Origin: Nostoc commune NIES-4072
GTDB taxonomy: Bacteria; Cyanobacteriota; Cyanobacteriia; Cyanobacteriales; Nostocaceae
Direction: 5' to 3'
DNA: 29,435 bases
Assembly (NCBI RefSeq): GCF_003113895.1
Contig: NZ_BDUD01000011.1
Span: 1 to 29,435, forward strand
Below, one piece after another: positions 5,924 to 26,264 of this stretch. The notes under the pieces were generated by a model. That model was not told where the DNA came from, did not search any database, and saw only the letters and a program-made list of their open reading frames with translations. How positions within the stretch are numbered: the stretch's first letter is position 1; the number at the start of each line of letters is the position of its first letter. A program made the position numbers and the translations under genes.

Positions 5924-5950
5924 GTACAGAGTACAGTACAGACTTTGCGC
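5924..5950. other. Tyrosine-recombinase-like core site, backbone copy 1
   Basis: Left arm GTACAGAGTA (5924-5933), 7-bp spacer CAGTACA, and degenerate right arm GACTTTGCGC (5941-5950), which matches TACTCTGTAC at 6 of 10 positions. One strong and one weak arm around a 6-8 bp spacer is the usual layout of Xer/dif-type crossover sites. The left arm is identical to that of the transposon site at 26237. Confidence 0.5.
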
Positions 5951-6065
5951 TAATAAACCTATTGCATATAAAAAACCCTGGAGAAATGCCAACTCTATCG
6001 AGATTGCAATTTATTCAGGGTTGTAAAGTGTATATTTATGGCACGTAAAAACGTAAACTTAGTAT

Positions 6066-6082
6066 TCCCAAAAATTTTGGGA
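6066..6082. repeat. Perfect 17-bp palindrome in the control region
   Basis: TCCCAAAA-A-TTTTGGGA has 8-bp arms and a 1-base centre. It sits between the two core sites. Nearby are AACCCTG/CAGGGTT (5974-5980 with 6016-6022) and CACGTAA-6-TTACGTG (6221-6240). It may be a protein-binding site; no function is known. Confidence 0.5.
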
Positions 6083-6129
6083 TTTGAACGTTATATAAAT
6101 TTGAACTTCAGGGGGTCTGCCGAAATCAA

Positions 6130-6156
6130 CCACAGAGTATATGCTCTACTCTGTAC
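6130..6156. other. Tyrosine-recombinase-like core site, backbone copy 2
   Basis: Left arm CCACAGAGTA (6130-6139), 7-bp spacer TATGCTC, right arm TACTCTGTAC (6147-6156). The right arm equals that of the transposon site at 26254-26263, and the left arm differs at two positions. It lies about 206 bp from copy 1 in the same arm order, the arrangement expected for a compound resolution site. Confidence 0.6.
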
Positions 6157-6307
6157 CATCTAAACGCAAATTACACGATTGTCGGCTCAACGCCAGATCA
6201 ATATATATAGGCAGTAATTACACGTAATGGCTCTTACGTGCAATGCTGCATGAATCATGAGCCAAAACGATAAGCCAACTATAAAATTTACGAACTTTAG
6301 AAGGATG

Positions 6308-6597
6308 TTATGTGCAAAAATTCTATATAATAAGCTTACTTAAGGTAGTTATATGGAAAAATTCCCTATAATACCCGAATATGAATGTTATATAGAAAAA
6401 TTCTGTATAATCACCCGATTTGAGGTATTTATATAGAAAGTTTCCCCATAATAAATAGTTAGGCTGAAAAAGCACGTTCTTTGTTGGAAGAAATGCGGAA
6501 GGTTTCGTTCTAATTAGCCTATTTGGAATATTATGCGGAAAAGTTCTCAGTCTAATTCGCTATATTGGCGATTAGGCAGAATTTTTCAGTCTAAATA
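6308..6597. repeat. Seven-unit array of degenerate palindromes, ~40-bp period
   Basis: Units of 25-27 bp start at 6308, 6349, 6388, 6429, 6491, 6531 and 6572. Steps are 41, 39, 41, 62, 40 and 41 bp. Units 1-4 fit TTATATRGAA-N3-TTCYNTATAAT. Units 5-7 fit a sister form with TTATGCGGAA-like left arms and right arms ending TCTAAT. All share GAA-N3-TTC at the centre. Unit 3 pairs TTATATAGAA with TTCTGTATAA, while unit 2 pairs TTATATGGAA with TTCCCTATAA, so some changes preserve pairing. The intervening ~15 bp are unrelated. This is likely a multisite binding region (origin, centromere or recombination accessory sites). It is not coding. Confidence 0.8.
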
Positions 6598-6705
6598 ATT
6601 GTTAGCTGGCTCGGCATCGAGTCCTTCCAGGTTATCTGTCATTCCGAAAACGTCTGGGAAGTTGTCTATTGTCCTCAAAGGTTATGCCATTTATGGGGGT
6701 ACTTT

Positions 6706-6837
6706 ATGTCTAATGCTTCCGACAATCAATCTCCGCCCCAGAAGTCTCAACTAGGAACCCCTGAAAAAGCGTTCAATTGGAAAGTCTCTGCTTTAATAGG
6801 GGTAAAAGTAGCCAAGACAGATTTTGCCGCCACGTAA
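6706..6837 (+). CDS. Short hypothetical ORF, possibly a gene remnant
   Basis: This encodes 43 residues starting MSNASDNQSPPQKSQLGTPE. The ATG at 6706 follows GGGGG at 6695-6699, a usable ribosome-binding spacing. No family is recognised; the first half is polar and the second half mildly hydrophobic. It ends just before another open stretch in a different frame (6845-7084), so both could be pieces of one decayed gene. Confidence 0.3.
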   Translation: MSNASDNQSPPQKSQLGTPEKAFNWKVSALIGVKVAKTDFAAT

Positions 6838-6844
6838 AGCTTGA

Positions 6845-7084
6845 AAGGCTTGCCATGAAGGAGTTACAGAAATAAAATCGCTGTTTTATCAAAAAACGGA
6901 GAAAAAGCTTGTTTTGGCTGTACCAGTAAAAGGGCGGCCACCCACAAAAGCCAAACCTATGTCACTAAAGGTACTGCCAAAAGTAATCTCAAAGTCACAG
7001 TTGAATGTTCCCTTCCCAAGCAACCCGAACAGGAAACTTAGTAAGCTTAAAGGACTCTGTGAATCGCGTGGGGGAAATGAATGA
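6845..7084 (+). pseudogene. Open stretch without start codon, basic and Pro/Lys-rich
   Basis: 79 codons are open after a TGA at 6842, reading for example EKKLVLAVPVKGRPPTKAKP, an AT-hook-like basic segment, and ending ...CESRGGNE. There is no ATG until about 6958. It may be the frameshifted continuation of the ORF at 6706-6837. Low confidence; it could be chance. Confidence 0.22.
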
Positions 7085-7107
7085 AGCCAGAAGAGATTGA
7101 GCCAGCT

Positions 7108-7135
7108 ATTACACCTTTGGGCTAAAACGTGTAAT
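7108..7135 (-). terminator. Inverted repeat beyond the end of the mob operon
   Basis: ATTACAC (7108-7114) and GTGTAAT (7129-7135) enclose a 14-base loop 12 bases past the stop of the 222-aa gene. There is no clear T-run, so this is a weak terminator candidate. Confidence 0.35.
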
Positions 7136-7146
7136 GCAGTCGCGGA

Positions 7147-7815
7147 CTAATTGCCAACCCTGATCGTCCAGCAGTCATCTTGCAAATCCGGCGGCAGTTC
7201 TGCTGGAAACTCATCAGTGGCATCTATCATGACGCTAAAGTGTTGATTTGCGTTTTTTCCTAACCTCTTGATTTCACGTAGCCATTTTGCAAGGTTCTTA
7301 CCCATAAAATCAGGATTAGAGGTATCGAGAATCAGCAGACGGACTCCGCTAGTAGCCATCCGTCGCAAACGTTTCTCAATTTGCTTAGATGTAATTGATG
7401 AAGGTTTAATACGGTAGGGGTCAGCAACATTGAAACTCATGACAGCTACACTGTATCGACCTTCTTTTATTGCATCGCCATTATCAATACTGCCCATGAA
7501 AATGAAAATTTCATGGTGAGGGGGGCAGGATTCGTGATCGACAACGTTCAAAACGTTAGCGGCCATTTCGCTGTTTAGATATTGATGAGTTGTCTCTTCA
7601 TCCAGCCACAAAGTTCCAAGCCCATCTTTTTCTGGGTAAATGAATTCATCAATGTCTGGGCGAAACTCTCCAACATTAACTAAGGCATACCCTTTGCCAA
7701 ACTCGCGTTTCATGAAGTGTATCTGCTTAAACGCCTTCGCCACAAAACTTGTATCAAAAAGTACTTGTGAGCAGAAGTCATTTAAAGCTTGCTGCAAAAT
7801 TGAAATGGAATCCAC
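7147..7815 (-). CDS. Unknown 222-aa protein at the end of the mobilisation operon
   Basis: I do not recognise this protein. It starts at GTG 7815 (MDSISILQQAL); an in-frame stop lies shortly upstream, and the next Met is near residue 35. It looks soluble and alpha/beta. Strand-rich segments end in charged turns (EIFIFMGSIDNGD; YSVAVMSFNVADPY; VRLLILDTSNPDF; HFSVMIDATDEFP), a pattern reminiscent of a Rossmann or P-loop-like core but without a visible Walker A. There is no signal peptide or transmembrane segment. It is the last gene of the leftward mob cluster, 37 bases after the 66-aa ORF, so a transfer or plasmid-maintenance role is only positional inference. Confidence 0.6.
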   Translation of the reverse strand: MDSISILQQALNDFCSQVLFDTSFVAKAFKQIHFMKREFGKGYALVNVGEFRPDIDEFIYPEKDGLGTLWLDEETTHQYLNSEMAANVLNVVDHESCPPHHEIFIFMGSIDNGDAIKEGRYSVAVMSFNVADPYRIKPSSITSKQIEKRLRRMATSGVRLLILDTSNPDFMGKNLAKWLREIKRLGKNANQHFSVMIDATDEFPAELPPDLQDDCWTIRVGN

Positions 7816-7852
7816 AATAAAAAGTGCTGTACTTTTAGTTGATGATACTAAC

Positions 7853-8053
7853 TCATTTTAGTATGTCCAATTTTACACGTATCTGGCGGCGTTGTTTCAC
7901 CCAACAGTAACCTAAGCAACTCTTAACTTCTAGGCGGACTGACTCGGAATGTCTGCCTCTGCCTGCAATAGGCGGGTTGGCTCCAGATAGGATTTGTGGC
8001 AGTGGCAGATACCGCTCTCGATTGAGCTTGGTAGGTTTGAAGTGCGTCATCAC
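7853..8053 (-). CDS. Small basic protein coupled to the relaxase 3' ORF
   Basis: This encodes 66 residues, strongly basic (for example KPTKLNRERYLPLP and KQRRQIRVKLDILK), with no recognised family. The start (GTG 8053 or the adjacent ATG 8050) immediately follows the TAG of the upstream ORF at 8054, so translation is probably coupled. High charge and location suggest a nucleic-acid-binding accessory factor, but that is inference. Confidence 0.5.
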   Translation of the reverse strand: MMTHFKPTKLNRERYLPLPQILSGANPPIAGRGRHSESVRLEVKSCLGYCWVKQRRQIRVKLDILK

Positions 8054-8920
8054 CTAAAGGGAAAATCCTTTATTTTGTCTGAGTTCTTGTTGCTGTTCTT
8101 CTATTATTTGTTGCAATACGTGGTCTGCTTTTTGCCAAACCTGAATATCTTCTCTTTCTACTGACCCAATATAAATCGGTGAATACTCAAGCTTACCTGA
8201 CTGGTTTCGGTTGACTGCCACTCGAAAAATCTCACCTCGTTCATCATGGGTAAATACCAATTCTCTACCCTGCTTCTCCAGAGTGGCACGTTTGAATCTA
8301 AGGCTATTTGAGCCACTTTCTCTTAGTTGCCAATTGATGAGTTCAACAGCAATAGGCACAGCCATAGCTAAGAATTCCTCTTCTTTACGCTGCTTTTCAT
8401 CGAGTGACTGTTCTGGTTCTGACTTTTGAGTTGCCAGTTGGTTGCTAGCGATAAGTACCAATTCTCTAGCTTCATCTTGTGTCCATCGGGCTGGACTAGC
8501 AAAGATAATTTCTTCAACATCTTGGATTGGCTTATCATCTAATAGCGCCCGTATAGCAATTTCTTTATCTCGGTCAGTCACTAATAAGTTTTGCAAGTCG
8601 GCGCTGTAATGCTTATATAACTCGGCTGAAAGATTATCTTTTAGCTTTGGTTCATCTGTGGTTATAGTTGGAGTTTTATTAAGAGCAATTGCGTCTACTG
8701 TTTTTTGCGATCTATGGAGTTGCTCCAAATAAACAATCGCTGCTTCCAGGTCGTCGAAGATGGTTCTTCCGGCTGATAGCTGCTGATATTGAGAAAGTTG
8801 TTGCGTTAATTCTAATACTGTTTCAGTTAATGCTGAAGAGATAGTCGATTGCTCAATATAATCAGCAATTGATGAAATGGCTCTTTTCTCTAGATATGAT
8901 TGCAACTCAGTCGCAAGCAC
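8054..8920 (-). CDS. Frameshifted C-terminal continuation of the relaxase
   Basis: This encodes 288 residues from GTG 8920. Its first ~45 residues (ELQSYLEKRAISSIADYIEQ...) repeat the last in-frame part of the relaxase (ELQSHVEKRAILSIFDYIEQ...). The rest is a helical, Glu/Gln-rich domain ending ADHVLQQIIEEQQQELRQNKGFSL. It therefore looks like the C-terminus of one long relaxase, separated by a frame change in the duplicated repeat. It overlaps the relaxase ORF by 31 bases. It could be made separately from GTG 8920, fused by -1 frameshifting at the T-TTA-AAG heptamer (8932-8938), or the gene may simply be mutated. Confidence 0.65.
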   Translation of the reverse strand: MLATELQSYLEKRAISSIADYIEQSTISSALTETVLELTQQLSQYQQLSAGRTIFDDLEAAIVYLEQLHRSQKTVDAIALNKTPTITTDEPKLKDNLSAELYKHYSADLQNLLVTDRDKEIAIRALLDDKPIQDVEEIIFASPARWTQDEARELVLIASNQLATQKSEPEQSLDEKQRKEEEFLAMAVPIAVELINWQLRESGSNSLRFKRATLEKQGRELVFTHDERGEIFRVAVNRNQSGKLEYSPIYIGSVEREDIQVWQKADHVLQQIIEEQQQELRQNKGFSL

Positions 8921-9120
8921 TGCATCCAGGTCTTTAAATGTAGCTTTAGCTGTAACACAAGTCCCTCTTTGTATTGAGAAAGTTGTTGCGTTAATTCTAA
9001 TACTGTTTCAGTTAATGCTGAAGAGACAGTCGATTGCTCAATATAATCAAAGATTGATAAGATAGCTCTTTTCTCTACATGGGATTGTAACTCTTGAGTA
9101 ATCGCCGATTCGAGGTCATC
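8787..9120. repeat. Tandem 185-bp duplication in the relaxase gene
   Basis: About 150 bp beginning at 8787 recurs at 8972 with a period of 185 bp and high identity, for example a shared run from TATTGAGAAAG through CGATTGCTCAATATAATCA. In protein terms, a ~62-residue helical unit (LTQQLSQ...FDDLE...ELQS..EKRA) is duplicated, and more divergent copies lie upstream. Because 185 is not a multiple of 3, the duplication and an indel put the downstream part out of frame. Confidence 0.8.
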
Positions 9121-10323
9121 GAATGCAGTTCTGACTGCTTCGCTCTGCTGCCTGACTTGAGAGAGTTGTTCTGTTAATTGTGGCAACGTTTCACTTAAAG
9201 TTGACTCAACTACTGACTGTGAAATCAAGTCAGAAATTGTATTTATGAGTTCTGAACTTGCTCGTTGTTTCGCATCTGATTTAGCTGGGGCTAGCTGGTG
9301 TTTAGTTTCGGCTATAGCTTGAGCTTTTTTAGGTAATATGGTTGATATTACTTGTTGATTAAGCTGGCTATTATCTACAGATTCTAAGAATTTATTCAAA
9401 CGTTTAATTTCGCTATCGTCCCGTAAGGGGTCGTAGTTTATCCCCAATTCTGTCTGGAGCTTTGTAAAGGAACACTTATATTTATTGAGATTACCTCCCT
9501 GTTTCCAGAGCAAACGGGGGCTACCATCTTCATTAACTGAGCCAATATCAATACCAAATTTAATACCCCTTACCCCACCATGACCGTAATAACTAACGAT
9601 GGCTTTGACTTGATGCTCTCTCCACAACTGCTCAATTAGCTCTTGTATTGTGGGTTTATTTACTGCCACTTGCTCAATCGCTCGGCGCATTATTTCTTCG
9701 CCGGGAAGTCCATCGCGCTCGACTCGTTCAAGTTGGTTACGAGTCATAGCCTTTTGCTTACTCTCCCAACTACTTTGGACTGGGGTTAGCTGAAATTCTC
9801 GCTCTAGTAGTCGGGCTGAGTGTTCCGAATGGGCGAAATTGTTCCAGGTACGAATAGATTTACCATCTAGGTTATTGACTCTAGATGCAACGATGTGGGT
9901 GTGGTCGTGTTCTTTGTCTGAGTGCCGCGCTATAAAGAAGTCATAAGCTGGTAATTCAGTTTCTATAAAATCATCAACTAGCTGTTTTAGTTTGCTGTCG
10001 TCTATCCTTTTATCAGGTTGTTTAACTTGGGACTCATCACCTTGAAGCCGCGATAGTACAATGACCGATGCCAAGTGACGTTGGGACAGATTAGCTAATT
10101 CGTCATCATTTAGCGTTCTATCATTTTTCGGTACACTAAGCATTAGGTGATAGCATGGGTCTTTTAGCTGCGGGTTAAGATGGGCTGATAAGGTAAACTG
10201 CTCCACCAGTTGATTGGTGCTTTTACCATACATATTCCCGCCAATAATTTTGGCTTTCTCTTTCTCAAGCACATATTTAGTAGTGCCACGAAATGATTTG
10301 TTAGCTTTGACTTTAGTAATCAT
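8890..10323 (-). CDS. mobA: MOBP-type relaxase (mobilisation nuclease)
   Basis: This would nick oriT and remain covalently attached to the transferred strand. The N-terminal relaxase domain (about 1-200) shows Y17 in TTKYVLEKE as candidate nucleophile. The metal-binding three-histidine motif is clear at residues 134-143 (H-S-D-K-E-H-D-H-T-H, followed by IVASRVN). Residues 205-330 include GHGGVRGIKFGIDIGS, and the C-terminal ~120 residues are helical repeats. The ATG at 10323 has a strong GGCGGAGAG ribosome site. The ORF ends at 8890 with a non-homologous tail (QLKLHLKTWMQCLRLSCNHI) caused by the frame change; the true C-terminus is the next ORF. It lies downstream of mobC and the deaminase gene. 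Family name MOBP is from motif shape, not a search. Confidence 0.88.
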   Translation of the reverse strand: MITKVKANKSFRGTTKYVLEKEKAKIIGGNMYGKSTNQLVEQFTLSAHLNPQLKDPCYHLMLSVPKNDRTLNDDELANLSQRHLASVIVLSRLQGDESQVKQPDKRIDDSKLKQLVDDFIETELPAYDFFIARHSDKEHDHTHIVASRVNNLDGKSIRTWNNFAHSEHSARLLEREFQLTPVQSSWESKQKAMTRNQLERVERDGLPGEEIMRRAIEQVAVNKPTIQELIEQLWREHQVKAIVSYYGHGGVRGIKFGIDIGSVNEDGSPRLLWKQGGNLNKYKCSFTKLQTELGINYDPLRDDSEIKRLNKFLESVDNSQLNQQVISTILPKKAQAIAETKHQLAPAKSDAKQRASSELINTISDLISQSVVESTLSETLPQLTEQLSQVRQQSEAVRTAFDDLESAITQELQSHVEKRAILSIFDYIEQSTVSSALTETVLELTQQLSQYKEGLVLQLKLHLKTWMQCLRLSCNHI

Positions 10324-10447
10324 CTCTCCGCCTCTAACACCTAGATATTACTTTGGTTCAATGTAAGAGTATCCTGTGTATAATCGACGAAAGCTTTACT
10401 CTTAACCTCTAATAGAGAGACACGGATATGCTCTGATAGGGTTGATT
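10324..10447 (-). promoter_or_regulatory. Leader between deaminase and relaxase genes
   Basis: 124 bases without an ORF break the otherwise tight operon. They contain a CTCTA-T-TAGAG palindrome on the minus strand (about 10410-10420), candidate promoter sequence TTATACACAGGATA, and the relaxase ribosome-binding site. A separate relaxase promoter or second regulatory point is plausible. Confidence 0.35.
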
Positions 10448-10837
10448 CTATCTGTGATATTTATTGGGAAGTAAGTCATTAATAGTAATAAGCATGGAAC
10501 CAGCTTCGCCTGGAACTATTACTTTGGCATCTGGTGCATAATCCGCTATTAACTCTCGACACATACCGCAGGGCGATACAACCTGACCATCTCTATTAAC
10601 TGCTACAATCATTTCAATTTCTGTGTCTCCAGCAGTAGCAGCCATACCAATAGCAATTGCTTCGGCACACACAGCAATTCTTCCCACAGTCGCCTCTATA
10701 TGTACAGCAGAAAAGACTTGACCAGAGCGGGTGAGTATGGCTGCTCCAATTTCGTGGTAATTAGGCTTGAATCGAGTTGTAATAAGCTGGCTGGCTACGT
10801 TGATTAGCTCAGTTTTTTTGTCATCGTTTTCTGGCAT
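10448..10837 (-). CDS. Cytidine-deaminase-fold protein within the mob operon
   Basis: This 129-residue zinc deaminase has the catalytic C57-A-E59 motif (VCAEAIAI) and P89-C90-G-M-C93-R (SPCGMCRE). C57, C90 and C93 are the zinc ligands of tetrameric cytidine or blasticidin-S-type deaminases, and E59 is the proton shuttle. Length and fold order (N-terminal helix, GAAILT strand, CAE helix, MIVAV strand, PCG helix) match the family. It is intact and sits 7 bases after mobC and upstream of the relaxase gene on the same strand, so it is very likely co-transcribed with the relaxosome genes. The substrate is unknown: free cytidine salvage, a toxic nucleoside, or bases in single-stranded transfer DNA are all possible. 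Confidence 0.9.
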   Translation of the reverse strand: MPENDDKKTELINVASQLITTRFKPNYHEIGAAILTRSGQVFSAVHIEATVGRIAVCAEAIAIGMAATAGDTEIEMIVAVNRDGQVVSPCGMCRELIADYAPDAKVIVPGEAGSMLITINDLLPNKYHR

Positions 10838-10844
10838 AAATCAG

Positions 10845-11306
10845 CTACTCTCTAGTTACCTGCTTATCGAGCTTACCATTATCATCACTCGATATAGGTT
10901 GGGTAATTTGTTGGCGAGTTTGTTCTAAGAGTTCCATCAATTCTTCAAGAGTTTTCAGATATGATTTCACCTCCACCGTCAACGGTTGACTACCAATTTT
11001 CACGGCTTCGTTAATAGCCCTAGTCTGCTGATTCAGGTTGTTACCAATCTTCTTTAGCTCGTAGATAGCCTGTCGGTTCACTTCGGGTATGACTAATTTA
11101 GGATGTGGTAGAGGGTAGTCAAATAATCTCGCTCTTATATAGTCACTTTGCACCACTCCACTGCAACGCTGCTCTAATCTAGCTTTCTCGGCATAGCTAG
11201 CTCTAAACGTGATGGTTACTTCTCGCTTTTCATCTGATGCTACTGACCGATTGGTTAATGTGTCAGCTAGTTGATTACTGAGGTTGATACGGGGGTCTGG
11301 CTGCAT
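10845..11306 (-). CDS. mobC: MobC-like relaxosome accessory protein
   Basis: This 153-residue protein has a strand near 27-35 (REVTITFRAS), helices typical of a ribbon-helix-helix DNA-binding region, and the MobC signature VNRQAIYELKKIGNNLNQQT at about 75-94. A helical C-terminus (EELMELLEQTRQQI) follows. MobC proteins bind oriT and help the relaxase open the nick region. It is the first gene of the leftward mob operon, directly beside the structured region at 11340-11710, the expected place for oriT. No strong Shine-Dalgarno precedes the ATG. Confidence 0.87.
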   Translation of the reverse strand: MQPDPRINLSNQLADTLTNRSVASDEKREVTITFRASYAEKARLEQRCSGVVQSDYIRARLFDYPLPHPKLVIPEVNRQAIYELKKIGNNLNQQTRAINEAVKIGSQPLTVEVKSYLKTLEELMELLEQTRQQITQPISSDDNGKLDKQVTRE

Positions 11307-11346
11307 AACTAGTTAAGCGTTTAGCTCTTTAAATATTTATTTTTTA

Positions 11347-11407
11347 CCGGGTTATTCGCTGTAGCTGCTACGGCGCTTTGCGCCGAGCAGGTAGGCGAAT
11401 AACCCGG
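11347..11407. repeat. Long inverted repeat with nested hairpin beside mobC
   Basis: Arms CCGGGTTATTCGC (11347-11359) and GCGAATAACCCGG (11395-11407) are a perfect 13-bp match. Inside is a second stem, CTGCT..GGCGC-TTT-GCGCC.AGCAG (11365-11390). A 61-base cruciform 40 bp from mobC is typical of relaxosome or oriT DNA. A T-run lies only on its left side, so a terminator is less likely. Confidence 0.75.
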
Positions 11408-11456
11408 AACCTCTTGTTGACTCATTTACCCCTTTAATAGACCTATAAAAGGGGGT

Positions 11457-11538
11457 TTGGGGGATACCCCCAACAAGCAACCACGCCGCTTTTACCGAAG
11501 GTAAAAGTAGCCCGGAGGGCGTTACGGCGTATTGCTTG
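11457..11538. other. G/C hairpin followed by a three-way-junction structure
   Basis: TTGGGGG-ATA-CCCCCAA (11457-11473) is followed by a two-layer outer helix: CAAGCAA (11474-11480) with TTGCTTG (11532-11538), then ACGCCG (11483-11488) with CGGCGT (11525-11530). Inside lie two hairpins, CTTTTACC-GAA-GGTAAAAG (11489-11507) and GCCC-GGA-GGGC (11510-11520). All stems are perfect. The fold could exist as single-stranded transfer DNA or as RNA from either strand. Right of it, the minus strand reads CAGTCCTGTCG (about 11551-11561), slightly like MOBP nic sites (TCCTG). Confidence 0.6.
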
Positions 11539-11857
11539 CCTAACCCCCCACGACAGGACTGGGATAACGAGAGCCAAGGGGCACAACGGGAGACTGGGGG
11601 AGTAAGAGACTTTGGCGAACCACGATTGACTCTGTGCAATTTCCTCGGTGTAACCGAGGGCAGGGTCTGTTTAACAATGCTGCCAACAGCCTTTGATGTC
11701 AAAGTGTTGATTCATGGGTAACTGCTTTTTTAAACTAGTCTACCTCACGAGGATATAAACCCATATTGATTGATATTCGTCACATCACGACAAGAAACTT
11801 AAACTTTTTCTGGTCACGTTTTTTTTACAATGGAATAATTTATTACTAGTGCTGGAT
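11539..11857. other. Remainder of the oriT-candidate region
   Basis: The sequence is G-rich on the plus strand to about 11620. It then holds a perfect hairpin CCTCGGT-GTA-ACCGAGG (11643-11659) and a palindrome CTTTGA-TG-TCAAAG (11691-11704). After 11720 it becomes AT-rich and probably carries the promoter for the rightward genes at 11858. Overlapping open frames on both strands do not look protein-like. Confidence 0.45.
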
Positions 11858-12124
11858 ATGCCGCGCAAACCGAAAGCTGTTCCTTTATCAAAAATAGAAG
11901 ATATTCAAACCAGTCTTAAACACTTTGCGGCGACTCCTAAAACTATCAGCCTGTCAGATTTAGTCCTCAGTTTGGCTAAACCTATTCAGGATATGTTAGA
12001 CGCTGGCTACTCTTATGAAGATGTTTCTGATGTGTTTAAAGGTCATGGGGTAGAACTGGCGGCCAGTGGTCTGAAGAGTTTTCATAAAAAAGCTTCAACA
12101 TCAACTGACTCCTATTCGCGCTGA
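11858..12124 (+). CDS. Small HTH-like protein beside the oriT candidate
   Basis: This encodes 88 residues from ATG 11858 (MPRKPKAVPLSK); a GTG at 11849 is an alternative. The middle and C-terminal part (LAKPIQDMLDAGYSYEDVSDVFKGHGVELAASGLKSF) follows the pattern of short plasmid DNA-binding proteins. In these, a GYSY-type helix-turn-helix segment is followed by a GI.LSASTLK-like recognition helix, as in several TraK or mobilisation accessory proteins. That assignment is by pattern only. It diverges from mobC across the structured region, so it may bind oriT or control transfer. Confidence 0.6.
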   Translation: MPRKPKAVPLSKIEDIQTSLKHFAATPKTISLSDLVLSLAKPIQDMLDAGYSYEDVSDVFKGHGVELAASGLKSFHKKASTSTDSYSR

Positions 12125-12143
12125 ACCCCTAACTAAATATGGA

Positions 12144-12329
12144 ATGATGGGGTTAATTACGACAATATTTGCTTTGTCAATGTTCTTTTCAATCAATCAA
12201 TTAATTCCGGTAAAAATCTCGGATGATTTCAATACCTATCTACGAGCTATCTGGCAGCGCACTGGTTATAGTAATGTCAAGCTACAACGGGTAGAAAAGC
12301 GTTTGGGGACTGACCGAAATCAAAGATGA
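12144..12329 (+). CDS. Possible small membrane-anchored protein
   Basis: This encodes 61 residues from the ATG pair at 12144. The N-terminal ~22 residues are hydrophobic (MMGLITTIFALSMFFSINQLI), resembling a signal anchor. The rest is basic (RAIWQRTGYSNVKLQRVEKRLG). It begins 19 bases after the preceding stop and ends before a strong bidirectional terminator, so it is plausibly the second gene of a two-gene unit. No ribosome-binding site is convincing. Confidence 0.4.
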   Translation: MMGLITTIFALSMFFSINQLIPVKISDDFNTYLRAIWQRTGYSNVKLQRVEKRLGTDRNQR

Positions 12330-12343
12330 AGGGCAATATATAG

Positions 12344-12385
12344 TGATTGGGGCAAACATGGTTAACGTAATGTTTGCCCCAATCA
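12344..12385. terminator. Bidirectional terminator between convergent genes
   Basis: Perfect 16-bp arms TGATTGGGGCAAACAT (12344-12359) and ATGTTTGCCCCAATCA (12370-12385) enclose a 10-base loop. It lies between the plus-strand ORF ending at 12329 and the minus-strand ORF ending at 12395. Confidence 0.8.
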
Positions 12386-12394
12386 TACAAAGAA

Positions 12395-12601
12395 TTAGAG
12401 ATAAGAATGCACAAGCTTACCTTGAGTTGACCACTTCTCATCTAGAAGACGACAAGCGACATAAACAACTTTTTGAGGGTTGCGCTTATGTCTGACAATC
12501 ATATTCCAAGAACGGACAGTATAATCACCTTGATAACCTAAGACAAGGGCAAGCTCGTCGTAAGTTAACTGCCATTTTTTCTTAAACTCAATTGGGTGCA
12601 T
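12395..12601 (-). CDS. Small HTH DNA-binding protein
   Basis: This encodes 68 residues. The segment WQLTYDELALVLGYQGDYTVRSWNMIVRHKRNPQKVV looks like a Cro/XRE-type helix-turn-helix, with LTYDELA as helix 2 and YTVRSW as recognition helix. It is the last gene of the leftward cluster, 94 bases after the ATPase gene. Similar short proteins are common transcription regulators on cyanobacterial plasmids; the target is unknown. It ends at the strong bidirectional hairpin. Confidence 0.6.
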   Translation of the reverse strand: MHPIEFKKKWQLTYDELALVLGYQGDYTVRSWNMIVRHKRNPQKVVYVACRLLDEKWSTQGKLVHSYL

Positions 12602-12695
12602 AAATTTAAATCCATTGCTAAGATTTTCGGCTTTTGATGTCTTGATGTCTTGGAACTAAGTGCTTTCTTAACGGCTTTTTGAGATTGCAGTAATA

Positions 12696-17728: not shown

Positions 17729-17791
17729 ATCGTAAAACTCTCAACTTTTTATCGTCACTGTCACAAGCAAAAGTAGTCGTTATTAACTAAC

Positions 17792-19694: not shown

Positions 19695-22600
19695 ATGGTA
19701 GCCATTTTAAAAGGACAAGAGACCGTTGGCGGCTCCGTTATGCCAGGGGCGTTCGCCTCCTTCGACATCCGAAATTTTCAAGACCAGTTAGAGCCATCCA
19801 AAGCTAAAGATAAGTTTATTTGTCCAGTTTGTGGGGGTAATGACTTATCTATCGTCCCAGAAACCGGGAAGTACAGATGCTTTAACGGTTGTGAGTGCAA
19901 ACACGTCAGAGAGGCAATTAAACCCTGGGCTGAAGTGGTGGCAGAAAGGGCAGGGGCTAATTACACTCCATCCCTAAACCGTTTGCCTGCGAAGCCTAAG
20001 AGAATCTTGCCCAAACCAGCACCAATTCCAGATGGGGAATTAGGTTTGGTGATGTTGACGGATACTGTAACAGATATTCCCCAACCGAAAAAGTTAACGA
20101 GTAGACCACCAAAAGATGTTGAGGGCAGTGCCACCGAAACAATTTATCCTTACTCAGAGTCGCAATGGGTGGTTCGCTACCAGTGGCCAGATGCCAATAA
20201 GGAGAAAGGTTACAGCAAGACCTTTCGGCAATGGCATAGGCGACTTGATGGCACACCCCAAATGAAAAAAGGCGATTTGCCTTGGGGAGCATATCGCATT
20301 GATGAAGCTTTAGCCTGTGCTAAATCTGTGACGGGAACCCCGGCACTACTCCAGCATGAAGGCGAGGGATGCGTAGAAGTTGGTCGCGCACATGGTCTTG
20401 CTGGGATTACGTTTCAAGGCAGTGGATGGGATAAGAAAACAATTACCTCGGAATATCAACGCGCAATTGAAGCAGGCATAGGATTAATCGTTTTTCTGCA
20501 TGACCCAGATGACACTGGCTTAAAGAAACTCCAGACCTGCCAGGACTGTGCCGACGAGGTGGGGATTGCATTTATTGGAATTAACCCACACGACATCTGC
20601 CCCGATTTACCATATAAATCAAGTGACATCAAAGAAATCTTGGGGCAGATGGAAACACCAGAATTTATCCGTCGGTTAGAGCAGGAGATTCACGCGGCTG
20701 TAGCGCAGCGATCGCAACAGGCAGAATCCGAAACTATTGAAAAAGAAGTTACGGATTTATCTAATTCCAAAATAGATATTGATCCAGCAGACCCAGAGGC
20801 ATTTTACTTGCCTGTATGCACTGCCATGAATTTACCCTACTCTAACTGCGTGACGGCGGGTACTTTTGATGGCTGGTCTTACCGAAAAATCTTTCCTCAA
20901 ACTGAATGGATGGTAGTAAATTCATCCTTTTACAAGTGGTCACAAGAGAATAAGCAATGGCAGCACCAAGATGATAATAAAGCTTACAAGCTCCTCGCTG
21001 ACGCTGGAGAATCCGCTTACAAGCTCTCTTACACAAAGACATTTGGCTGGAGAATAACCAAGCCTTACGAAACTAACGCACACAAGGAATCTGCCTTTAA
21101 ATATTGCCGCAGTCGCTTAGAACCAGCAGAACCACTGCCAACCAATACTCATTTATTAGGGTTTAACAATTGTGTCGTTGATTTGCGAACTGGTGAACAA
21201 ATGCCTCATCGCAAAGATTTTTACCTCACTAATATTATTCCCCACGATTACGAAGCCAACAAACCATGTCCAGAAGTTTTTCGGAAATTTATAACTGAGA
21301 GCTTTGGGTCAGAATTGGTTGAAGTGATTCGGGCGTTCACGAGTATGTTTTTAGACCCAACTGCCCCTTATGGTCGGTTTCCCCACTTAATTGGCTTAAG
21401 TGGTGGGGGCAAGGGGACGCTAGGACGGTTTTGGAGTAGTTTATTTGGCGAATCCGGCTCTAGTAGCGCCACACATTTTGCGGATATTTCTACACCGGAA
21501 GGACGGCATCAATATTTAAGTGGAAAGCGGATATTTGGATTCCCTGACGTAGGAGGTTATGCCGAAGGAGTCCGAGCTTTTTACGAATTAGTTGACAATG
21601 GGGCAATGAGCGGACGCGCTTTATTCAATCCAGTAGCTTATTCAATCCAGTGGTACATTCGGTTTTGGGTTGCCTCTGTAAGTCATCTACAGATTGAAAA
21701 TGCTGGCGACGGCTGGATGCGTCGAGCTTACCCAATTCCAGTCAAAAACCGAGATGTAACCCCTGACCCCGACTTGTGGCTGAAGCTACAAGAGGTGAAG
21801 TCCGACATAATTTCTTGGGCTTTAGCAATGCCACGAGCAGAACGCAACAGCATTTTGTTATCGCCTCCCTCTTCAGATCGGGCAAAGAATCTGGCGCTAG
21901 AGGCATCTTTGTACGGGGACTCGACCAAATCCTTTGTGGATTTGTGCTTACGCCCCTCAACGACCGAAACATTTATCCCACAAAGTCGTTTACACAGCTG
22001 GTATGTACTTTACTGCCGGGAACATGGTTATGCTCCTTTGGGGATGTCCAAATTTATTAGCCATTTAAAAACAGTCTTGCCCCACAACTTCAAGGAACGT
22101 AGCTGGACACCCACGGTCAACGGAAAGCGTGAAAGAATTCAGTCCCACTTTGCATTCATTGAACCACTGGCTGGGGTCTTTGAGATGAAAGTACCGGAGG
22201 GGCCACCGGATTCTTCACTTTCTTCTTCGGAATTTTGGTATTGCTTTAAAGATAAATGCCTTGAAGGGGGAATAGAAGAATTCGAGGAGTTTTTTCACCC
22301 GCTCAAAACGCCAGAACCCTTACACAGCAGGGCTGTCCACCCTGTCCACCCACTAAATACCCCTCGATTTGACCCTGGACAGGCTGAAAGCCTTACACAG
22401 CTTGGCTGTCCACCCTGTCCAATTGTCCTCCCCCAAGAATTAGCATTGCAAAAAAAAGATGAGTTAAATTCTGAAAGTGGAGTTAATCAATTTGTCAATT
22501 TAACTGATAACCCTTCAGTCCCCCTAGACTTTGTGGACAACCTGGACAGCCCTGCTGTGACTGGGTTTGAGCCTGTCCAACAAGGAAATCTTGCCGAAAA

Positions 22601-22895
22601 CTCTTTGGACAGCCAGGACAGCCCTGCTGTGACTGGGTTTTCTCCTCGACAAGATGGTGAATTGATAAATGCACGAGAAAGCGAATTGTTCCGCCCGGAA
22701 TTGAAAGTTGGGGATAAAGTTGAGTTTTTCAACGACAGTGTTCGCAAGTGGCAAGTCGGAATCATTAAGAGTGTTCAACTAATGGAAACATATTTCTGTA
22801 GCGCAACAATTGACTATCGAGGCTTTAAAGGTCAATTATGTCAATTAGAAATCTTCAGGAGTGATTGGATAAAATTTCTGCATCATTTGCGTTAA
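19695..22895 (+). CDS. Plasmid primase-helicase replication protein
   Basis: This 1066-residue protein probably initiates or drives plasmid replication. Domains in order: a zinc motif C43-x2-C46...C62 with C66/C68 (CPVCGGND, RCFNGCEC); a TOPRIM-like region around 220-310 with LIVFLHDPDDTGLKKL (DUF3854-like); a D5/SF3-type helicase from about 490 with Walker A GLSGGGKGT near 568, GKRIFGFPDVGGY near 612 and a sensor in FWVASVSHLQ near 660; a variable linker (about 840-990) carrying DNA-level repeats; and a C-terminal SH3-like module (KVGDKVEFFNDSVRKWQVGIIKSV). The ATG follows AAGGA. It is larger than phage D5 primases. Rep role is by domain content and position. Confidence 0.85.
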   Translation: MVAILKGQETVGGSVMPGAFASFDIRNFQDQLEPSKAKDKFICPVCGGNDLSIVPETGKYRCFNGCECKHVREAIKPWAEVVAERAGANYTPSLNRLPAKPKRILPKPAPIPDGELGLVMLTDTVTDIPQPKKLTSRPPKDVEGSATETIYPYSESQWVVRYQWPDANKEKGYSKTFRQWHRRLDGTPQMKKGDLPWGAYRIDEALACAKSVTGTPALLQHEGEGCVEVGRAHGLAGITFQGSGWDKKTITSEYQRAIEAGIGLIVFLHDPDDTGLKKLQTCQDCADEVGIAFIGINPHDICPDLPYKSSDIKEILGQMETPEFIRRLEQEIHAAVAQRSQQAESETIEKEVTDLSNSKIDIDPADPEAFYLPVCTAMNLPYSNCVTAGTFDGWSYRKIFPQTEWMVVNSSFYKWSQENKQWQHQDDNKAYKLLADAGESAYKLSYTKTFGWRITKPYETNAHKESAFKYCRSRLEPAEPLPTNTHLLGFNNCVVDLRTGEQMPHRKDFYLTNIIPHDYEANKPCPEVFRKFITESFGSELVEVIRAFTSMFLDPTAPYGRFPHLIGLSGGGKGTLGRFWSSLFGESGSSSATHFADISTPEGRHQYLSGKRIFGFPDVGGYAEGVRAFYELVDNGAMSGRALFNPVAYSIQWYIRFWVASVSHLQIENAGDGWMRRAYPIPVKNRDVTPDPDLWLKLQEVKSDIISWALAMPRAERNSILLSPPSSDRAKNLALEASLYGDSTKSFVDLCLRPSTTETFIPQSRLHSWYVLYCREHGYAPLGMSKFISHLKTVLPHNFKERSWTPTVNGKRERIQSHFAFIEPLAGVFEMKVPEGPPDSSLSSSEFWYCFKDKCLEGGIEEFEEFFHPLKTPEPLHSRAVHPVHPLNTPRFDPGQAESLTQLGCPPCPIVLPQELALQKKDELNSESGVNQFVNLTDNPSVPLDFVDNLDSPAVTGFEPVQQGNLAENSLDSQDSPAVTGFSPRQDGELINARESELFRPELKVGDKVEFFNDSVRKWQVGIIKSVQLMETYFCSATIDYRGFKGQLCQLEIFRSDWIKFLHHLR
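22318..22640. repeat. Four-copy repeat inside the rep gene, two direct and two inverted
   Basis: Copies at about 22318-22348 and 22391-22420 read CACAGC(AG/TT)GGCTGTCCACCC then TGTCC. Two inverted copies at about 22534-22568 and 22605-22640 carry GACAGCCCTGCTGTGACTGG. Spacing is 73 and 72 bp. The two forward copies are read in different frames (HSRAVHPVHP versus LTQLGCPPCP), so DNA rather than protein sequence is shared. Confidence 0.75.
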
Positions 22896-23034
22896 ATCAG
22901 TTAACAGTTATTGTCACCGATGTAAAACCCGATTAGGGAATTTTGCAGCATCGACAATGCCGCCAGTCATGTAGATACTTGATAGACAATTAAGATTGAA
23001 TTAGACCGCGATTTCTCCCCTATTAACAATAATC

Positions 23035-23961
23035 ATGGCATCTGCTGAATTTACCTCGCCAGAGTCAACCCAAGCAGTACCGACAGTTGAAAACCCATCG
23101 GATGAAAAGCAAGTAAATGTTGACACGTCAACAGAAACAGAAATTGAATCGACAGCAGCAATATTTCAAGCTGTTGGGGTAATTACTGGGTCGGTCAACT
23201 TTACTACTGATGGACAAAGCACTGTTACTATCGGTAGCTATGAATACCCACTTTATTACTCGAAGCGACAATGGGATGTATTAAACGCTCTCAAGAAGGA
23301 AATAGAAAATACTGGCAACCAGAATCAGCGTTTGGTTGTTTATCCAAAGGCAATTCACTTTCCACGCAGAGAGCAACCGCATCGCATCGGTTTTCAGTTA
23401 GTGGGCTTTGACAGAGGGCGAAAACTAGATGCAGTTTCAGGGGAGTTAGAAGACCTAGAGTTTAAATTATCAGGATTATGGCAGTTCATTCCTGTCTGCT
23501 CTACTCCCTGTATCTCTGTGTTCCGAAATTTCTCTGATGAAAGACTCGAATTTATTAAGCAGGCCGAACCTGCCCGAAAGGTGAAATTCATGAAGGCTAG
23601 TCATATACCGTTGCTATGGAAGGATGCACCCGTCCGACCCTTCAGATTTAATCCCAAATTGGAGAAAGACCAACAAGGACGCGCCGTGTTTGTCACAATC
23701 AAGGCGAAATTTCTGCCGGGGCGTGATGTCTTCGGTTTTGTTGCACTGACTGCGCTACCACAAGAAGCTGCACCGAGATTTCTCAAAGCGTCTAAGGAGG
23801 ATAAAGCCACAGTGCAGTCAGCAGCTAAGAAAGCGCAAAGAGCAGCAGCACCACCTGCACCGAAGAAAGGTAAGTCAAAAGCGACTAGTCAGGATAATAC
23901 CTCTGTGCCGCGTACCAAACCATTACCAAAACCAAAACCAAAGTTAAAAACGGGTGAGTAA
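23035..23961 (+). CDS. Unknown plasmid protein with basic C-terminal tail
   Basis: This encodes 308 residues. N-terminus (about 1-45) is acidic, Ser/Thr/Glu-rich. A beta-rich core follows (about 45-240): IFQAVGVITGSVNFT...VTIGSYEYPLYYSKRQW, LVVYPKAIHFPR, RIGFQLVGFDRG, GLWQFIPVC, ISVFRNFSDERLEF, AVFVTIKAKFLPGRDVFGFVAL. Strand density suggests an OB-fold-like or nucleic-acid-binding domain. The tail (about 255-308) is Lys/Ala/Pro-rich and ends PKPKPKLKTGE. It is 139 bases downstream of rep, so a single-stranded DNA-binding or replication accessory role is plausible but unproven. Confidence 0.7.
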   Translation: MASAEFTSPESTQAVPTVENPSDEKQVNVDTSTETEIESTAAIFQAVGVITGSVNFTTDGQSTVTIGSYEYPLYYSKRQWDVLNALKKEIENTGNQNQRLVVYPKAIHFPRREQPHRIGFQLVGFDRGRKLDAVSGELEDLEFKLSGLWQFIPVCSTPCISVFRNFSDERLEFIKQAEPARKVKFMKASHIPLLWKDAPVRPFRFNPKLEKDQQGRAVFVTIKAKFLPGRDVFGFVALTALPQEAAPRFLKASKEDKATVQSAAKKAQRAAAPPAPKKGKSKATSQDNTSVPRTKPLPKPKPKLKTGE

Positions 23962-24485
23962 AACCGCTTTTTTGTTTGCTCATGCGATCGCCATCATGGG
24001 GGTTAGAGCCGTTGTGTGGCCCCCTGAATAAATAAGTATTTGCAATAGTCGAGTCAGCCCTGACTGGCTGGCGCTCACGAGAGATTAAGGTTTTGGGGCG
24101 GTTAGGCTATCTTATTGACATTAGCTAGTCATCTCAAAATTTTCAACGCTGTATTGCTGTGCCACCTCTTCACCCTTTAGTCCTGCTACCCGACTACGGT
24201 GACGCCAAGTGCGATCGCTTATTGATTTTGAGTTGTAATGAAAAAAATATAATTTTCATCTATAAAAAGTATGAAATCTAAAGATAACAATTTTCTATAT
24301 CTAAAGAAATTAAGTATTTGTTGTATTTAATCTAATAGTATACTTCTGGCAGAAGATGTAAAAAAATATTAGGCATAGTAAATCAAAATCAATATTAATC
24401 AAGATTCCTAAACAATTCAGGCAAGTGTGCTATATACAAACTTGGAACAGCCTAAAGCTCTGTTAAAATCAGCAGCACACAAACT
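23962..24485. other. Gene-free region with HIP1 sites and hairpins
   Basis: Just after the stop, ACCG followed by CTTTTTTG (about 23962-23977) may terminate transcription. GGGGG/CCCCC (23998-24024) and the CAGCC..GGCTG hairpin (about 24056-24073) follow. Two HIP1 sites lie at 23984 and 24211. From 24235 the DNA is AT-rich and leads to the glycosyltransferase fragment. No gene seen. Confidence 0.4.
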
Positions 24486-24586
24486 ATGAACTCTATCACC
24501 GAAAAACGTATCGCCTTGATTTCCGTCCACGGAGACCCGGCGATTGAAATAGAGAAAGAAGAAGCTGGGGGACAAAATGTTTATAT
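24486..24586 (+). pseudogene. 5' part of the glycosyltransferase interrupted by the transposon
   Basis: From ATG 24486 the peptide reads MNSITEKRIALISVHGDP, AIEIEKEEAGGQNVY, the typical N-terminus of cyanobacterial GT1 enzymes with the conserved G-G-Q-N-V-Y. The reading frame runs directly into the transposon end at 24587. Joining 24586 to base 6 of the window gives ...GQNVYMHQVGEAL, a seamless family match. Confidence 0.85.
24582..24586. repeat. Left target-site duplication TATAT
   Basis: TATAT precedes the left terminal repeat and recurs at bases 1-5, directly after the right terminal repeat at 29435. Five-base duplications are standard for Tn3-family insertion. Confidence 0.85.
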
Positions 24587-24636
24587 GGGGTAGAGCTGGC
24601 GAAGCTGTCACCAAATGCAAACTAAACAGTTTAGTT
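24587..24636 (+). repeat. Left terminal inverted repeat
   Basis: 50 bp matching the right end with about five mismatches: GGGGTAGA(G/A)CTGGCGAAGC, then TGTCA...TGCAAACTAAAC. Longer than the usual 38 bp. Its inner part is a perfect palindrome AACTAAAC-A-GTTTAGTT (24620-24636). Confidence 0.93.
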
Positions 24637-24697
24637 CAGTAAAGCGGTAAAGTTTAGTTTGAATAATGAAAGAGACAAGTAGTAAATAATACTAATA

Positions 24698-25168
24698 TTA
24701 AAGGGGCTGGCTTTGAGATTCAGAACTAATAGAAGCTTTATATGGAAAGCCACAGTAAGGACAAAACCGAAATTTCAATGACGTAATAGGTTCGTTACAC
24801 TTAGCACAACTATTACGTAATGCCGTACCGCACAAGAAACAAAACTGCGATCGCGGCAATAACCAGATTTCTTCAAGAGTTGTTCCGGGAGTCCAGCAGT
24901 CGGGGCAAAATTTGAGGACATCGGTTGCAGACATGGGTACACCCCGGATGACTGCATCAAGGTACTCAGATGGAACCTGCAATGCGCGAGCTAATCCACG
25001 CTGGCTTTTACTATTGAGCTTGGTAGTCATGCCTCGTTCAATCTTACCTAAACTTTGAAGATGAATGCCTGCCTTAGTTGCCAAATCATTTTGACTTAAT
25101 GAAAGGCTTGTGCGTATTCTTTTAACGTACTGGGACAGCGTTTCTTGGGGTTGGGGGGTATTGTCCAT
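24698..25168 (-). CDS. XRE-type regulator with two zinc ribbons
   Basis: This encodes 156 residues. A Cro/XRE helix-turn-helix lies at about 11-65 (LSQYVKRIRTSLSLSQNDLA, AGIHLQSLGKIERG). The C-terminal half has four CxxC pairs (CPDC, CFLC, CAKC, CPYC), which can form two zinc ribbons. It diverges from the tyrosine recombinase gene with 96 bases between starts, so it probably represses the shared promoter region. The AAACTAAAC-N-GTTTAGTTT palindromes in the terminal repeats are another candidate target. Not a standard Tn3 gene. Confidence 0.82.
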   Translation of the reverse strand: MDNTPQPQETLSQYVKRIRTSLSLSQNDLATKAGIHLQSLGKIERGMTTKLNSKSQRGLARALQVPSEYLDAVIRGVPMSATDVLKFCPDCWTPGTTLEEIWLLPRSQFCFLCGTALRNSCAKCNEPITSLKFRFCPYCGFPYKASISSESQSQPL

Positions 25169-25264
25169 GCTTTTAATATGTAGTAAAGTATATAATTAAT
25201 TATTTTATATAAGTGCATATTTTAAATGAATAGCAGTACTTTTAATTAGATAAAGAGGTGAAAC
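25169..25264. promoter_or_regulatory. Divergent promoter region of regulator and tnpI
   Basis: 96 AT-rich bases hold TAATTAATTA and two CTTTTAAT motifs (near 25170 and 25239). Promoters in both directions must lie here. In Tn4430-type elements the recombination site is upstream of tnpI, but I see a clearer core at 26236-26264. Confidence 0.45.
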
Positions 25265-26170
25265 GTGACAACTACATTAGCACAAGTTGCTACAGCTTTC
25301 CTTTCTCGACAAGGATTAGCTGCTAGTACACTTAAATCTTACGAGCTAACACTACTATCTTTGCTGAAAGAGCATGGCTCCTTACCTATAGAGTTAGTAG
25401 ACCGTCAACTGCTGAAAGACTACTTAGCTCGGTTAGATGAACTAAAATACACGACTCATAATCGTCACCAAGCAATAATCAGCGCTCTGTTGAATTTTGC
25501 TGTTGAATCTGGCTACATTCAATCAAACCCAGTTAGCCGTCTGAGTCTGAGGAAACCAAATCGAGAACGGGGAGAACACAATACAGACGAGATAATACGC
25601 TACCTCACGTCTCAAGAATTAGATATTTTGTATGATTTGTTAAAAAAATCTAATGCTAGACTTGAGACGATAGTCCGCTTGCTGCATCGAAGTGGAGCTA
25701 GAATTGGAGAATTACTTGGACTGGAACTGGCACAAATTTTTCAGGAACAACGTAAATTTCAGGTAGTGGGTAAAGGCAACAAAAAACGCTGGTGCTTTTA
25801 TAGTGAAGATGCAGAAATTGCTTTAAAAAACTATATAAAATATTATCGTCATCCAGGTTCAACAGCATTATTCACCGCTCAACATCCAACGACTAAAGTT
25901 GTAACACCAGTAAGTTATGAGGCAGTAACGGCAGACTGGCGAGAAATAATTGACCAAAGCCAGAAATTAAAAGGGATTAGGCTGCATGATCTCCGCCATA
26001 CCTTTGCCACTGAGCGGGTGGGATTGATGGGAATTGAAGAATTACGGGCGCTGATGGGACATGAAAACATTCAAACAACTCTCCGCTACCAAAAAGTAAC
26101 TAGTGCGAGAGCAGAAATAGTAGCAAAGTCTGCTTTAGAGAATTTAAAAAAAGTATATAAAAGTATATAA
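25265..26170 (+). CDS. tnpI: TnpI-like tyrosine recombinase (cointegrate resolvase)
   Basis: This encodes 301 residues from GTG 25265, with AGAGGTG upstream. The N-terminal core-binding SAM-like domain (about 1-95: AQVATAFLSRQGLAASTLKSY ... HNRHQAIISALLNFA) precedes a catalytic domain. That domain carries Arg in HRSGARIGELLGLE (~147), Lys in GKGNKKRW (~170), LHDLRHTFA (~240-247), His in MGHENIQ (~265) and Tyr in LRYQKV (~275). It would resolve transposition cointegrates at a site in the element. The palindrome immediately downstream (26236-26264) is the best candidate. It is a normal full-length member. Confidence 0.9.
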   Translation: MTTTLAQVATAFLSRQGLAASTLKSYELTLLSLLKEHGSLPIELVDRQLLKDYLARLDELKYTTHNRHQAIISALLNFAVESGYIQSNPVSRLSLRKPNRERGEHNTDEIIRYLTSQELDILYDLLKKSNARLETIVRLLHRSGARIGELLGLELAQIFQEQRKFQVVGKGNKKRWCFYSEDAEIALKNYIKYYRHPGSTALFTAQHPTTKVVTPVSYEAVTADWREIIDQSQKLKGIRLHDLRHTFATERVGLMGIEELRALMGHENIQTTLRYQKVTSARAEIVAKSALENLKKVYKSI

Positions 26171-26235
26171 AAGTTAAGGAATATTTCTGAGTAATAAATT
26201 TACCAATACATATATTGACTAGAGTTAATTGTTGC

Positions 26236-26264
26236 AGTACAGAGTAGAGTATCTACTCTGTACT
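26236..26264. other. Recombination core site between tnpI and tnpA
   Basis: Arms GTACAGAGTA (26237-26246) and TACTCTGTAC (26254-26263) flank the 7-bp spacer GAGTATC. Symmetry extends to 13-bp arms with a 3-base centre. It lies 14 bases before the tnpA start region, and could also act as operator or attenuator for tnpA. The same arms occur twice in the plasmid control region. Confidence 0.75.

Follow-up and report, generated by a model that had tools for sequence, protein, structure and literature searches.

Palindromic TnpI-type core sites in a Tn3-family transposon, in miniature elements and in plasmid backbones of Nostoc, and their probable recombination

A plasmid of the cyanobacterium Nostoc commune NIES-4072 carries a Tn3-family transposon in which a tyrosine recombinase, TnpI, is encoded next to the transposase, TnpA, and palindromes of one kind are found both in this transposon and in the plasmid backbone. 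The stretch analysed, the 29,435 nucleotides of contig NZ_BDUD01000011.1 (hereafter the window), is 100% identical over two compared stretches to AP018334.1, a circular plasmid from Nostoc commune HK-02 that has the same length of 29,435 bp, and the point at which the circle is opened is the exact end of the transposon. The two 50-nt terminal inverted repeats of the transposon are 90% complementary, and a 5-bp target duplication, TATAT, flanks it at 24582-24586 and, over the circle junction, at 1-5. It thus has both features by which the Tn3 family is recognized, terminal repeats at least about 38 bp long and a 5-bp duplication, and its TnpA scores above the 500-bit cut-off of the model NF033527. 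As in transposons with a TnpI and an internal recombination site (irs), tnpI is colinear with tnpA. Two further copies, with identical core, spacer and tnpI, are present on two other contigs of this genome, C2 and C9. The NCBIfam models closest to TnpI are Xer-like, at scores under their cut-offs, and by sequence the protein matches XerD structures. A smaller tyrosine recombinase of 200 residues is encoded in the backbone; the original prediction had taken the two for distinct enzymes, and a Phage_integrase domain is present in both.

Direct reading and a pattern search agree with the original prediction on the positions, arms and 7-bp spacers of three palindromes in the window. The transposon site, 26237-26263, had been described as near-perfect; its position stands, and its arms prove to be perfect (no mismatch) and extendable to 13 bp. 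Both other sites lie in the backbone: 6130-6156 reads CCACAGAGTA-TATGCTC-TACTCTGTAC, in which the left arm carries two mismatches and the right arm none, and 5924-5950 reads GTACAGAGTA-CAGTACA-GACTTTGCGC, in which the right arm carries four mismatches and the left arm none. At up to three mismatches a search of the window returns the transposon site and 6130-6156 only, 5924-5950 being beyond that limit, and none of 100 dinucleotide shuffles gives any match, which rules out chance as the origin of the two better sites. The half-site GTACAGAGTA has four perfect occurrences in the window, all within the three palindromes; alone it is weaker evidence, with 1.25 occurrences expected at one mismatch and four of 100 shuffles reaching four. 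A longer half-site of 26 positions built from other genomes, TTGGTGCAGAGTA, ranks the same three places at the top of the plasmid, with scores of 20, 20 and 18; the next-best plasmid match scores 17, and site 6130-6156 is barely above background by this measure.

The palindrome is retained in relatives of the transposon. We compared 30 tnpI loci, one per genome and the window's own included, with TnpI identities of 60-100%. CAGAGTA-N7-TACTCTG is matched at 11 or more of its 14 positions within 200 bp downstream of tnpI in 26 of them, and in none within 200 bp upstream; base shuffles give 0.9%. Absence of the palindrome from such relatives, which the original prediction had named as evidence against itself, is therefore not what is seen. 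It is the best-conserved block of the post-tnpI region in 13 aligned loci, picked from those that carry it. The spacers differ among these relatives, and one locus with a 98%-identical tnpI has the same flanks and an inverted spacer (GATACTC). An inverted-repeat pair placed in this way is what a recombinase core, the IR1-IR2 of TnpI/irs systems, would look like, and its conservation after tnpI makes it the candidate core of this recombinase.

Beyond the transposon, a search with a free 7-bp spacer, of the kind proposed in the original prediction, found the exact 14-base core in 40 genomes out of the 217 from Nostocaceae; the control with the pattern reversed gave zero. Fifty-four distinct sites were classified from loci fetched among the places listed. 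A common flank, F0, adjoins 34 of them, with F1 (18), F2 (14) or other sequence (2) on the opposite side; the other 20 comprise copies of the transposon, sites of the window type and singletons. Sites with F0 lie in miniature elements with Tn3-like inverted repeats of about 38 bp, in which the core has outer arms GGTG/CACC and is bracketed at about 90-140 bp by the paired ends GGCATCACCGTGCCAAAACGGGAAAATTGTACGCTAAG; two loci (L152 and L169) have other sequence in place of the left end. Searching for both ends yielded 23 distinct elements of 246-286 bp, with the exact core in 21 and a perfect 5-bp target duplication in six (chance about 0.001 per element, at an assumed A+T of 60%). Short, non-autonomous and with Tn3-type ends shared by a partner transposon, they reside on replicons other than the window. 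One lies at about 4364-4645 of AP018330, a sister plasmid of the same strain; window positions of about 7609-7652 are homologous to its insertion region and lack the element, without forming a clean empty site. A search with the whole element was positive in 127 of the 217 genomes, a figure that does not count miniature elements, most of the matches listed being the terminal repeat alone.

The 38-bp end is complete in six loci of TnpI transposons (L214, L215, L221, L224, L226 and L229). Five of these have 12-13 of the 14 core positions after tnpI, and in L224 an insertion has displaced the core relative to the gene. A complete autonomous copy of about 4.7 kb has the order tnpA, regulator, tnpI, core, followed by a stretch 83% identical to F1; because of this identity over the interval from site to end, F1 can be read as a transposon end plus half of the core. 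In the partner transposon L307, tnpI and tnpA are divergent. Viewed by eye, L214, L215, L226 and L229 have additional sequence between core and terminal repeat, which may hold cargo genes, and merely about 100 bp separate the two in L221. Contig G135:C29 (35 kb) has two miniature elements of like core, flanks and orientation 26.3 kb apart, representing either a cointegrate or an assembly overlap.

The exact 27-bp pattern had no match in viral contigs. A search of genome contigs with a 23-bp core (ACAGAGTA-N7-TACTCTGT) returned 56 stretches, seven of them cyanobacterial. Five of the seven encode relatives of tnpA, tnpI or parA; L048 has the tnpA C-terminus only, and L057 encodes none of the six proteins tested. 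Eight of the 56 come from one assembly of Candidatus Symbiothrix, an organism far from cyanobacteria (L006, L008, L016, L017, L027, L037, L044 and L051), and represent a repeated element that is hardly due to chance.

In the backbone of the window the two sites bound a module of about 200 bp. A search with positions 5951-6250, three candidates being scored per genome, matched at least 42 of the 217 genomes, its own included. We then counted where homology to window 5701-6420 ends, leaving out the window's own locus and four others that repeated a place already present. Of 126 interior ends, 15 fall in site 1 (4.9 expected), 20 in site 2 (4.9 expected) and 22 in a palindrome of another kind at 6217-6244 (5.1 expected), amounting to 35 against 9.8 expected for the two CAGAGTA sites and 57 against 15 with the third palindrome; ten are exactly at 6133 and four exactly at 6153. 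These ends are not independent, near-duplicates having been kept (for example L088, L092 and L093 with L118, and L111 with L114), and a palindrome conserved amid differing surroundings would yield them by any mechanism; the surroundings do appear to change there. Homology ends thus cluster at the sites, as they might if discrete, site-bounded modules of the dif/pdif kind were swapped between replicons.

Several loci display rearranged versions of this region. The left flank of the window (95% identical) is fused to a variant of the right-hand block through a single degenerate site, without the module, in L061 and L094. The module is inverted relative to the right-hand block in L079, where the spacer is GAGTACA; it has a different right neighbour and a retained core in L078, L079, L104, L105 and L106, and has lost the core at its right junction in L080. 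Twenty loci contain the exact module-edge string: in five (L062, L074, L076, L100 and L104) site 1 is fused to the F1 half of a miniature element, whose terminal repeat is visible in L062, four resemble two further left halves to degrees that range from weak to strong, and 11 have neither. A complete miniature element around 6157-6244 was considered and rejected, as its end pairs with no left end and is the second palindrome; near 5924-6244 nothing reaches 22 of 38 positions of the 38-bp end, and the comparison there shows element halves only. The proposal that the plasmid captured a transposon site is supported: with cores inside Tn3-type miniature elements and the module fused to an element half, the backbone sites look transposon-derived. 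A part for them in dimer resolution, as the original prediction had it, would be conjectural.

The spacers do not behave as the original prediction had expected in stating that different ones should block cross-recombination. In 25 of 32 distinct rows the right-hand block has TATGCTC or a close variant; three others have GAGTACA or CAGTACA, one has a hybrid and three are coreless. The left flank of the window is followed by CAGTACA here and by GAGTACA in L061 and L094; a left half akin to it (74% over 107 bases) precedes TATGCTC in L088 and CAGTACA in L102. The hybrid spacer of L079 is readable as GAG, from GAGCATA, plus TACA, from CAGTACA. Furthermore, both orientations of a spacer occur between like flanks (L142, L130, L162, L140 and L201), in the miniature elements, such as F0-TTGGTAC-F2 and F0-GTACCAA-F2, and in the transposon itself. 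Differing spacers did not hold the site families apart.

Table 1. Features of the window discussed in the text
Feature	Position	Strand	Basis or remark
Tn3-family transposon with TnpI	24587..29435	+	4849 bp; terminal repeats and target duplication
Left terminal inverted repeat	24587..24636	+	50 nt
Right terminal inverted repeat	29386..29435	-	50 nt
Helix-turn-helix/zinc-ribbon regulator	24698..25168	-	Pfam HTH_3 and DZR; adjoins tnpI in many relatives
TnpI tyrosine recombinase, 301 aa	25265..26170	+	Phage_integrase domain
TnpI-type core palindrome GTACAGAGTA-GAGTATC-TACTCTGTAC	26237..26263	.	Pattern search; conserved in relatives
TnpA, Tn3-family transposase	26278..29256	+	DDE_Tnp_Tn3 464.9 bits; NF033527 1013 bits
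Degenerate backbone core site 1, spacer CAGTACA	5924..5950	.	Direct reading; half-site ranking
Module between both backbone sites	5951..6129	+	About 200 bp; no reading frame listed at 80 aa or above
Backbone core site 2, spacer TATGCTC	6130..6156	.	Pattern search
Right-hand block, mostly travelling with the TATGCTC spacer	6157..6244	+	Ends in 28-bp palindrome 6217-6244
Backbone small tyrosine recombinase, 200 aa	1059..1661	+	Phage_integrase; catalytic domain only
ACTGTCC-N19-GGACACT element before the 200-aa recombinase	1012..1044	.	Alignment of upstream regions

We consider it probable that TnpI-type cores were spread by miniature Tn3 elements and subsequently recombined with one another. The comparison displays a site family, its linkage to tnpI, miniature elements matched by a TnpI transposon, breaks of homology at cores, and a module that is present, absent or inverted. 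Because of the linkage between tnpI and the site, TnpI is the best candidate for the enzyme: it would bind both inverted arms, cut there and recombine two copies of the core, resolving the cointegrates made by TnpA. Related Tn3 transposons would have given rise to miniature elements, composed of ends and core, that spread the site across Nostoc plasmids, and the backbone pair would share the origin of the transposon core. Given several cores in one cell, a recombinase of the TnpI type could act on them in trans and join, excise, integrate or invert the intervening DNA, and the module of the window would be one product of such shuffling.

Several observations weigh against this interpretation. 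Normal tyrosine recombination leaves the spacer unflipped relative to its flanks and does not explain spacers found in two orientations; these could arise by one-strand exchange with subsequent replication or by switching of the template at hairpins. Eight site-bearing genomes (G107, G110, G118, G122, G132, G134, G139 and G140), with 1-7 exact sites each, gave no TnpI match at E ≤ 1e-20 when at most 10 candidates were scored per genome. Because of these genomes the acting enzyme may be other than TnpI, or may since have been lost. Four of the 30 tnpI loci (L207, L219, L224 and L228) lack the site at its usual position. Site 1 in L062, L074 and L104 has a 2-bp spacer between perfect or near-perfect arms and is hardly an ordinary core, three junctions of the right-hand block (L067, L116 and the second copy in L063) have no core at all, and further clusters of homology ends lie outside the sites, at 5968, 6093 and 6195. 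A perfect target duplication is missing from 17 of the 23 miniature elements. No source was found for F0, which resembles the complete autonomous copy at its end only, nor for the window's own flanking halves. Finally, the irs of Tn4430 is placed upstream of tnpI, with direct repeats DR1 and DR2 in addition to the IR1-IR2 core, in the sections of PMC7157771 consulted, whereas the core here is downstream, and the arm was not seen to recur around it as accessory direct repeats.

The 200-aa recombinase of the backbone has its own conserved surroundings. Its closest NCBIfam models, below cut-off, are named tyrosine-type DNA invertase, which we take to be those of the FimB/FimE invertases. An element ACTGTCC/AGTGTCC...GGACACT is conserved upstream of the gene (16 of 30 fetched upstream regions aligned), and none of the best palindromes listed from about 450 bp upstream to 400 bp downstream of it (L170-L199) is of the CAGAGTA type. 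For this reason it is probable that each of the two window-encoded recombinases has a site of its own, the 1012-1044 element being the more likely target of the 200-aa enzyme; that both use related sites, as the original prediction had suggested, is unsupported, and the different footprint argues against a single site for the two. In the window AGTGTCC at 584-590 and GGACACT at 1038-1044, the latter within the conserved element, are inverted and about 450 bp apart, and segment 584-1044 is possibly invertible or regulated. Another candidate partner of the sites, the 325-aa integrase of AP018330, was discarded, mere fragments of it being present near two sites (L145 and L157), and among the Phage_integrase matches listed for 15 genomes no recombinase was seen to adjoin the miniature-element sites in all cases.

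These observations bear on the alternative that the backbone site is the plasmid's own cer/dif-like dimer-resolution site, served by the 200-aa or a host Xer enzyme, and that the transposon acquired a similar site independently. We regard this as unlikely, even though the site lies near parA, a frequent place for stability functions, and sites persist where no TnpI was found. Moreover, the 200-aa recombinase is encoded in many of the same genomes, at times on the same contig, and 0.6 kb (L146) and 2.2 kb (L162) from a miniature-element site. The footprint upstream of the 200-aa gene is of a different kind, however, as are the best palindromes listed near it, and the location of 34 of the 54 classified sites in miniature-element flanks points to a transposon rather than to a resolution locus, for which two sites 206 bp apart would also be odd.

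The palindromes might instead be operators or hairpins, with junctions arising by template switching or illegitimate recombination at hairpins and no site-specific recombinase at work. Loop inversion by template switching would fit the two spacer orientations between like flanks, and the arms are sometimes perfected past the core, as in L076 with arms of about 15 bp. Nevertheless we find this account improbable in view of the linkage to a tyrosine recombinase, the constant 7-bp spacing over wide divergence, the TATGCTC-like spacer that the right-hand block mostly retains with several left partners, and the presence, absence and inversion of the module, which resemble integration, excision and inversion. 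That the backbone structure results from transposition targeted into core sites by res-site hunters, without core-core recombination, appears very unlikely. Site-hunting elements are known near Xer sites, according to the portion of PMC10132070 consulted, and the miniature element of L132 abuts, by eye, an apparent half of another element's core; yet at several junctions the module has a palindrome with a 7-bp spacer at either end, and a single core unites halves that stem from different elements, an outcome unobtainable by insertion alone.

The palindrome at 6217-6244 (ATTACACGTAA-TGGCTC-TTACGTGCAAT) belongs to a second kind, of 28 bp in an 11-6-11 arrangement, of which another copy lies at 7108-7135 (ATTACACCTTT-GGGCTA-AAACGTGTAAT). 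Its strict form, matched by neither window copy, occurs in 23 of the 217 Nostocaceae genomes (control 0), and among the matches listed 18 of 39 places have, by eye, the spacers GAGCCA or GGGCTA in either orientation. A palindrome of this kind lies about 47 bp upstream of the gene for a 183-aa tyrosine recombinase consisting of the catalytic domain only, found on other contigs of the same strain (G000:C7:19841-20389 and G000:C8:2261-2809) and in loci L267-L296; the outer arms are seen upstream in 17 of 30 loci by eye, and are palindromic at 9 or more of 11 positions by script in 14 of 30. The palindrome is hence likely to be the site of this enzyme. The window plasmid, which holds two such sites, was not among the contigs matched when the strain was searched for the 183-aa recombinase. 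A 166-nt direct repeat (82%) at window 8787-9137 lies where two reading frames meet, 8054-8920 and 8890-10323; both have a relaxase annotation and may together be one split gene.

More tentatively, and with the balance leaning against so broad a picture, Nostoc plasmids might sustain a pdif-like economy of module exchange run by tyrosine recombinases other than XerC/XerD. In it, Tn3-derived miniature elements would sow TnpI cores, the unrelated 28-bp family would serve the 183-aa recombinase, and both enzymes would act in trans on plasmids lacking their genes, with exchange across different spacers, for instance by one-strand exchange completed by replication.

Among known systems, the closest in arrangement is the TnpI/irs of Tn4430 and Tn5401, where a tyrosine recombinase is likewise colinear with a Tn3-family tnpA and has a core of two inverted repeats, as far as described in the consulted sections of PMC7157771; the likeness was drawn without comparing the TnpI sequences. 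The miniature elements correspond to TIMEs (Tn3-derived inverted-repeat miniature elements), described in the consulted parts of PMC4133298 and PMC13367494 as short and non-autonomous, with Tn3-type ends, 5-bp duplications and in some cases an internal resolution site, and for which inversion between two copies has been reported. The resolution sites discussed there are those of TnpR, a serine resolvase, whereas the site here is of the tyrosine, TnpI kind; the term TnpI is absent from the main text of both papers, as is the stem cyanobacter- from that of PMC13367494. The literature searched, which did not extend to subscription papers and so is no proof of novelty, yielded no TnpI-type counterpart of TIMEs from cyanobacterial plasmids. 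The arrangement here may also be likened to the Acinetobacter dif/pdif modules, which, in the accounts consulted, are plasmid segments with short sites for tyrosine recombinases at their borders that are shuffled from one plasmid to another. The dif and pdif sites have 11-bp arms and a 6-bp spacer. Unlike these XerC/XerD sites, the CAGAGTA sites have symmetric arms and a 7-bp spacer and appear to be transposon-derived.

The sites thus connect TnpI resolution, Tn3-type miniature elements and the shuffling of plasmid modules, which are usually separate topics. Candidate target sites can be named for three tyrosine recombinases in a phylum for which dif prediction failed in one survey, according to its consulted portion (PMC3025954). 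The hybrid and two-orientation spacers challenge the usual rule of spacer identity, and core sites sown by miniature elements and then recombined would offer a concrete, testable reason for the mosaic structure of Nostoc plasmids.

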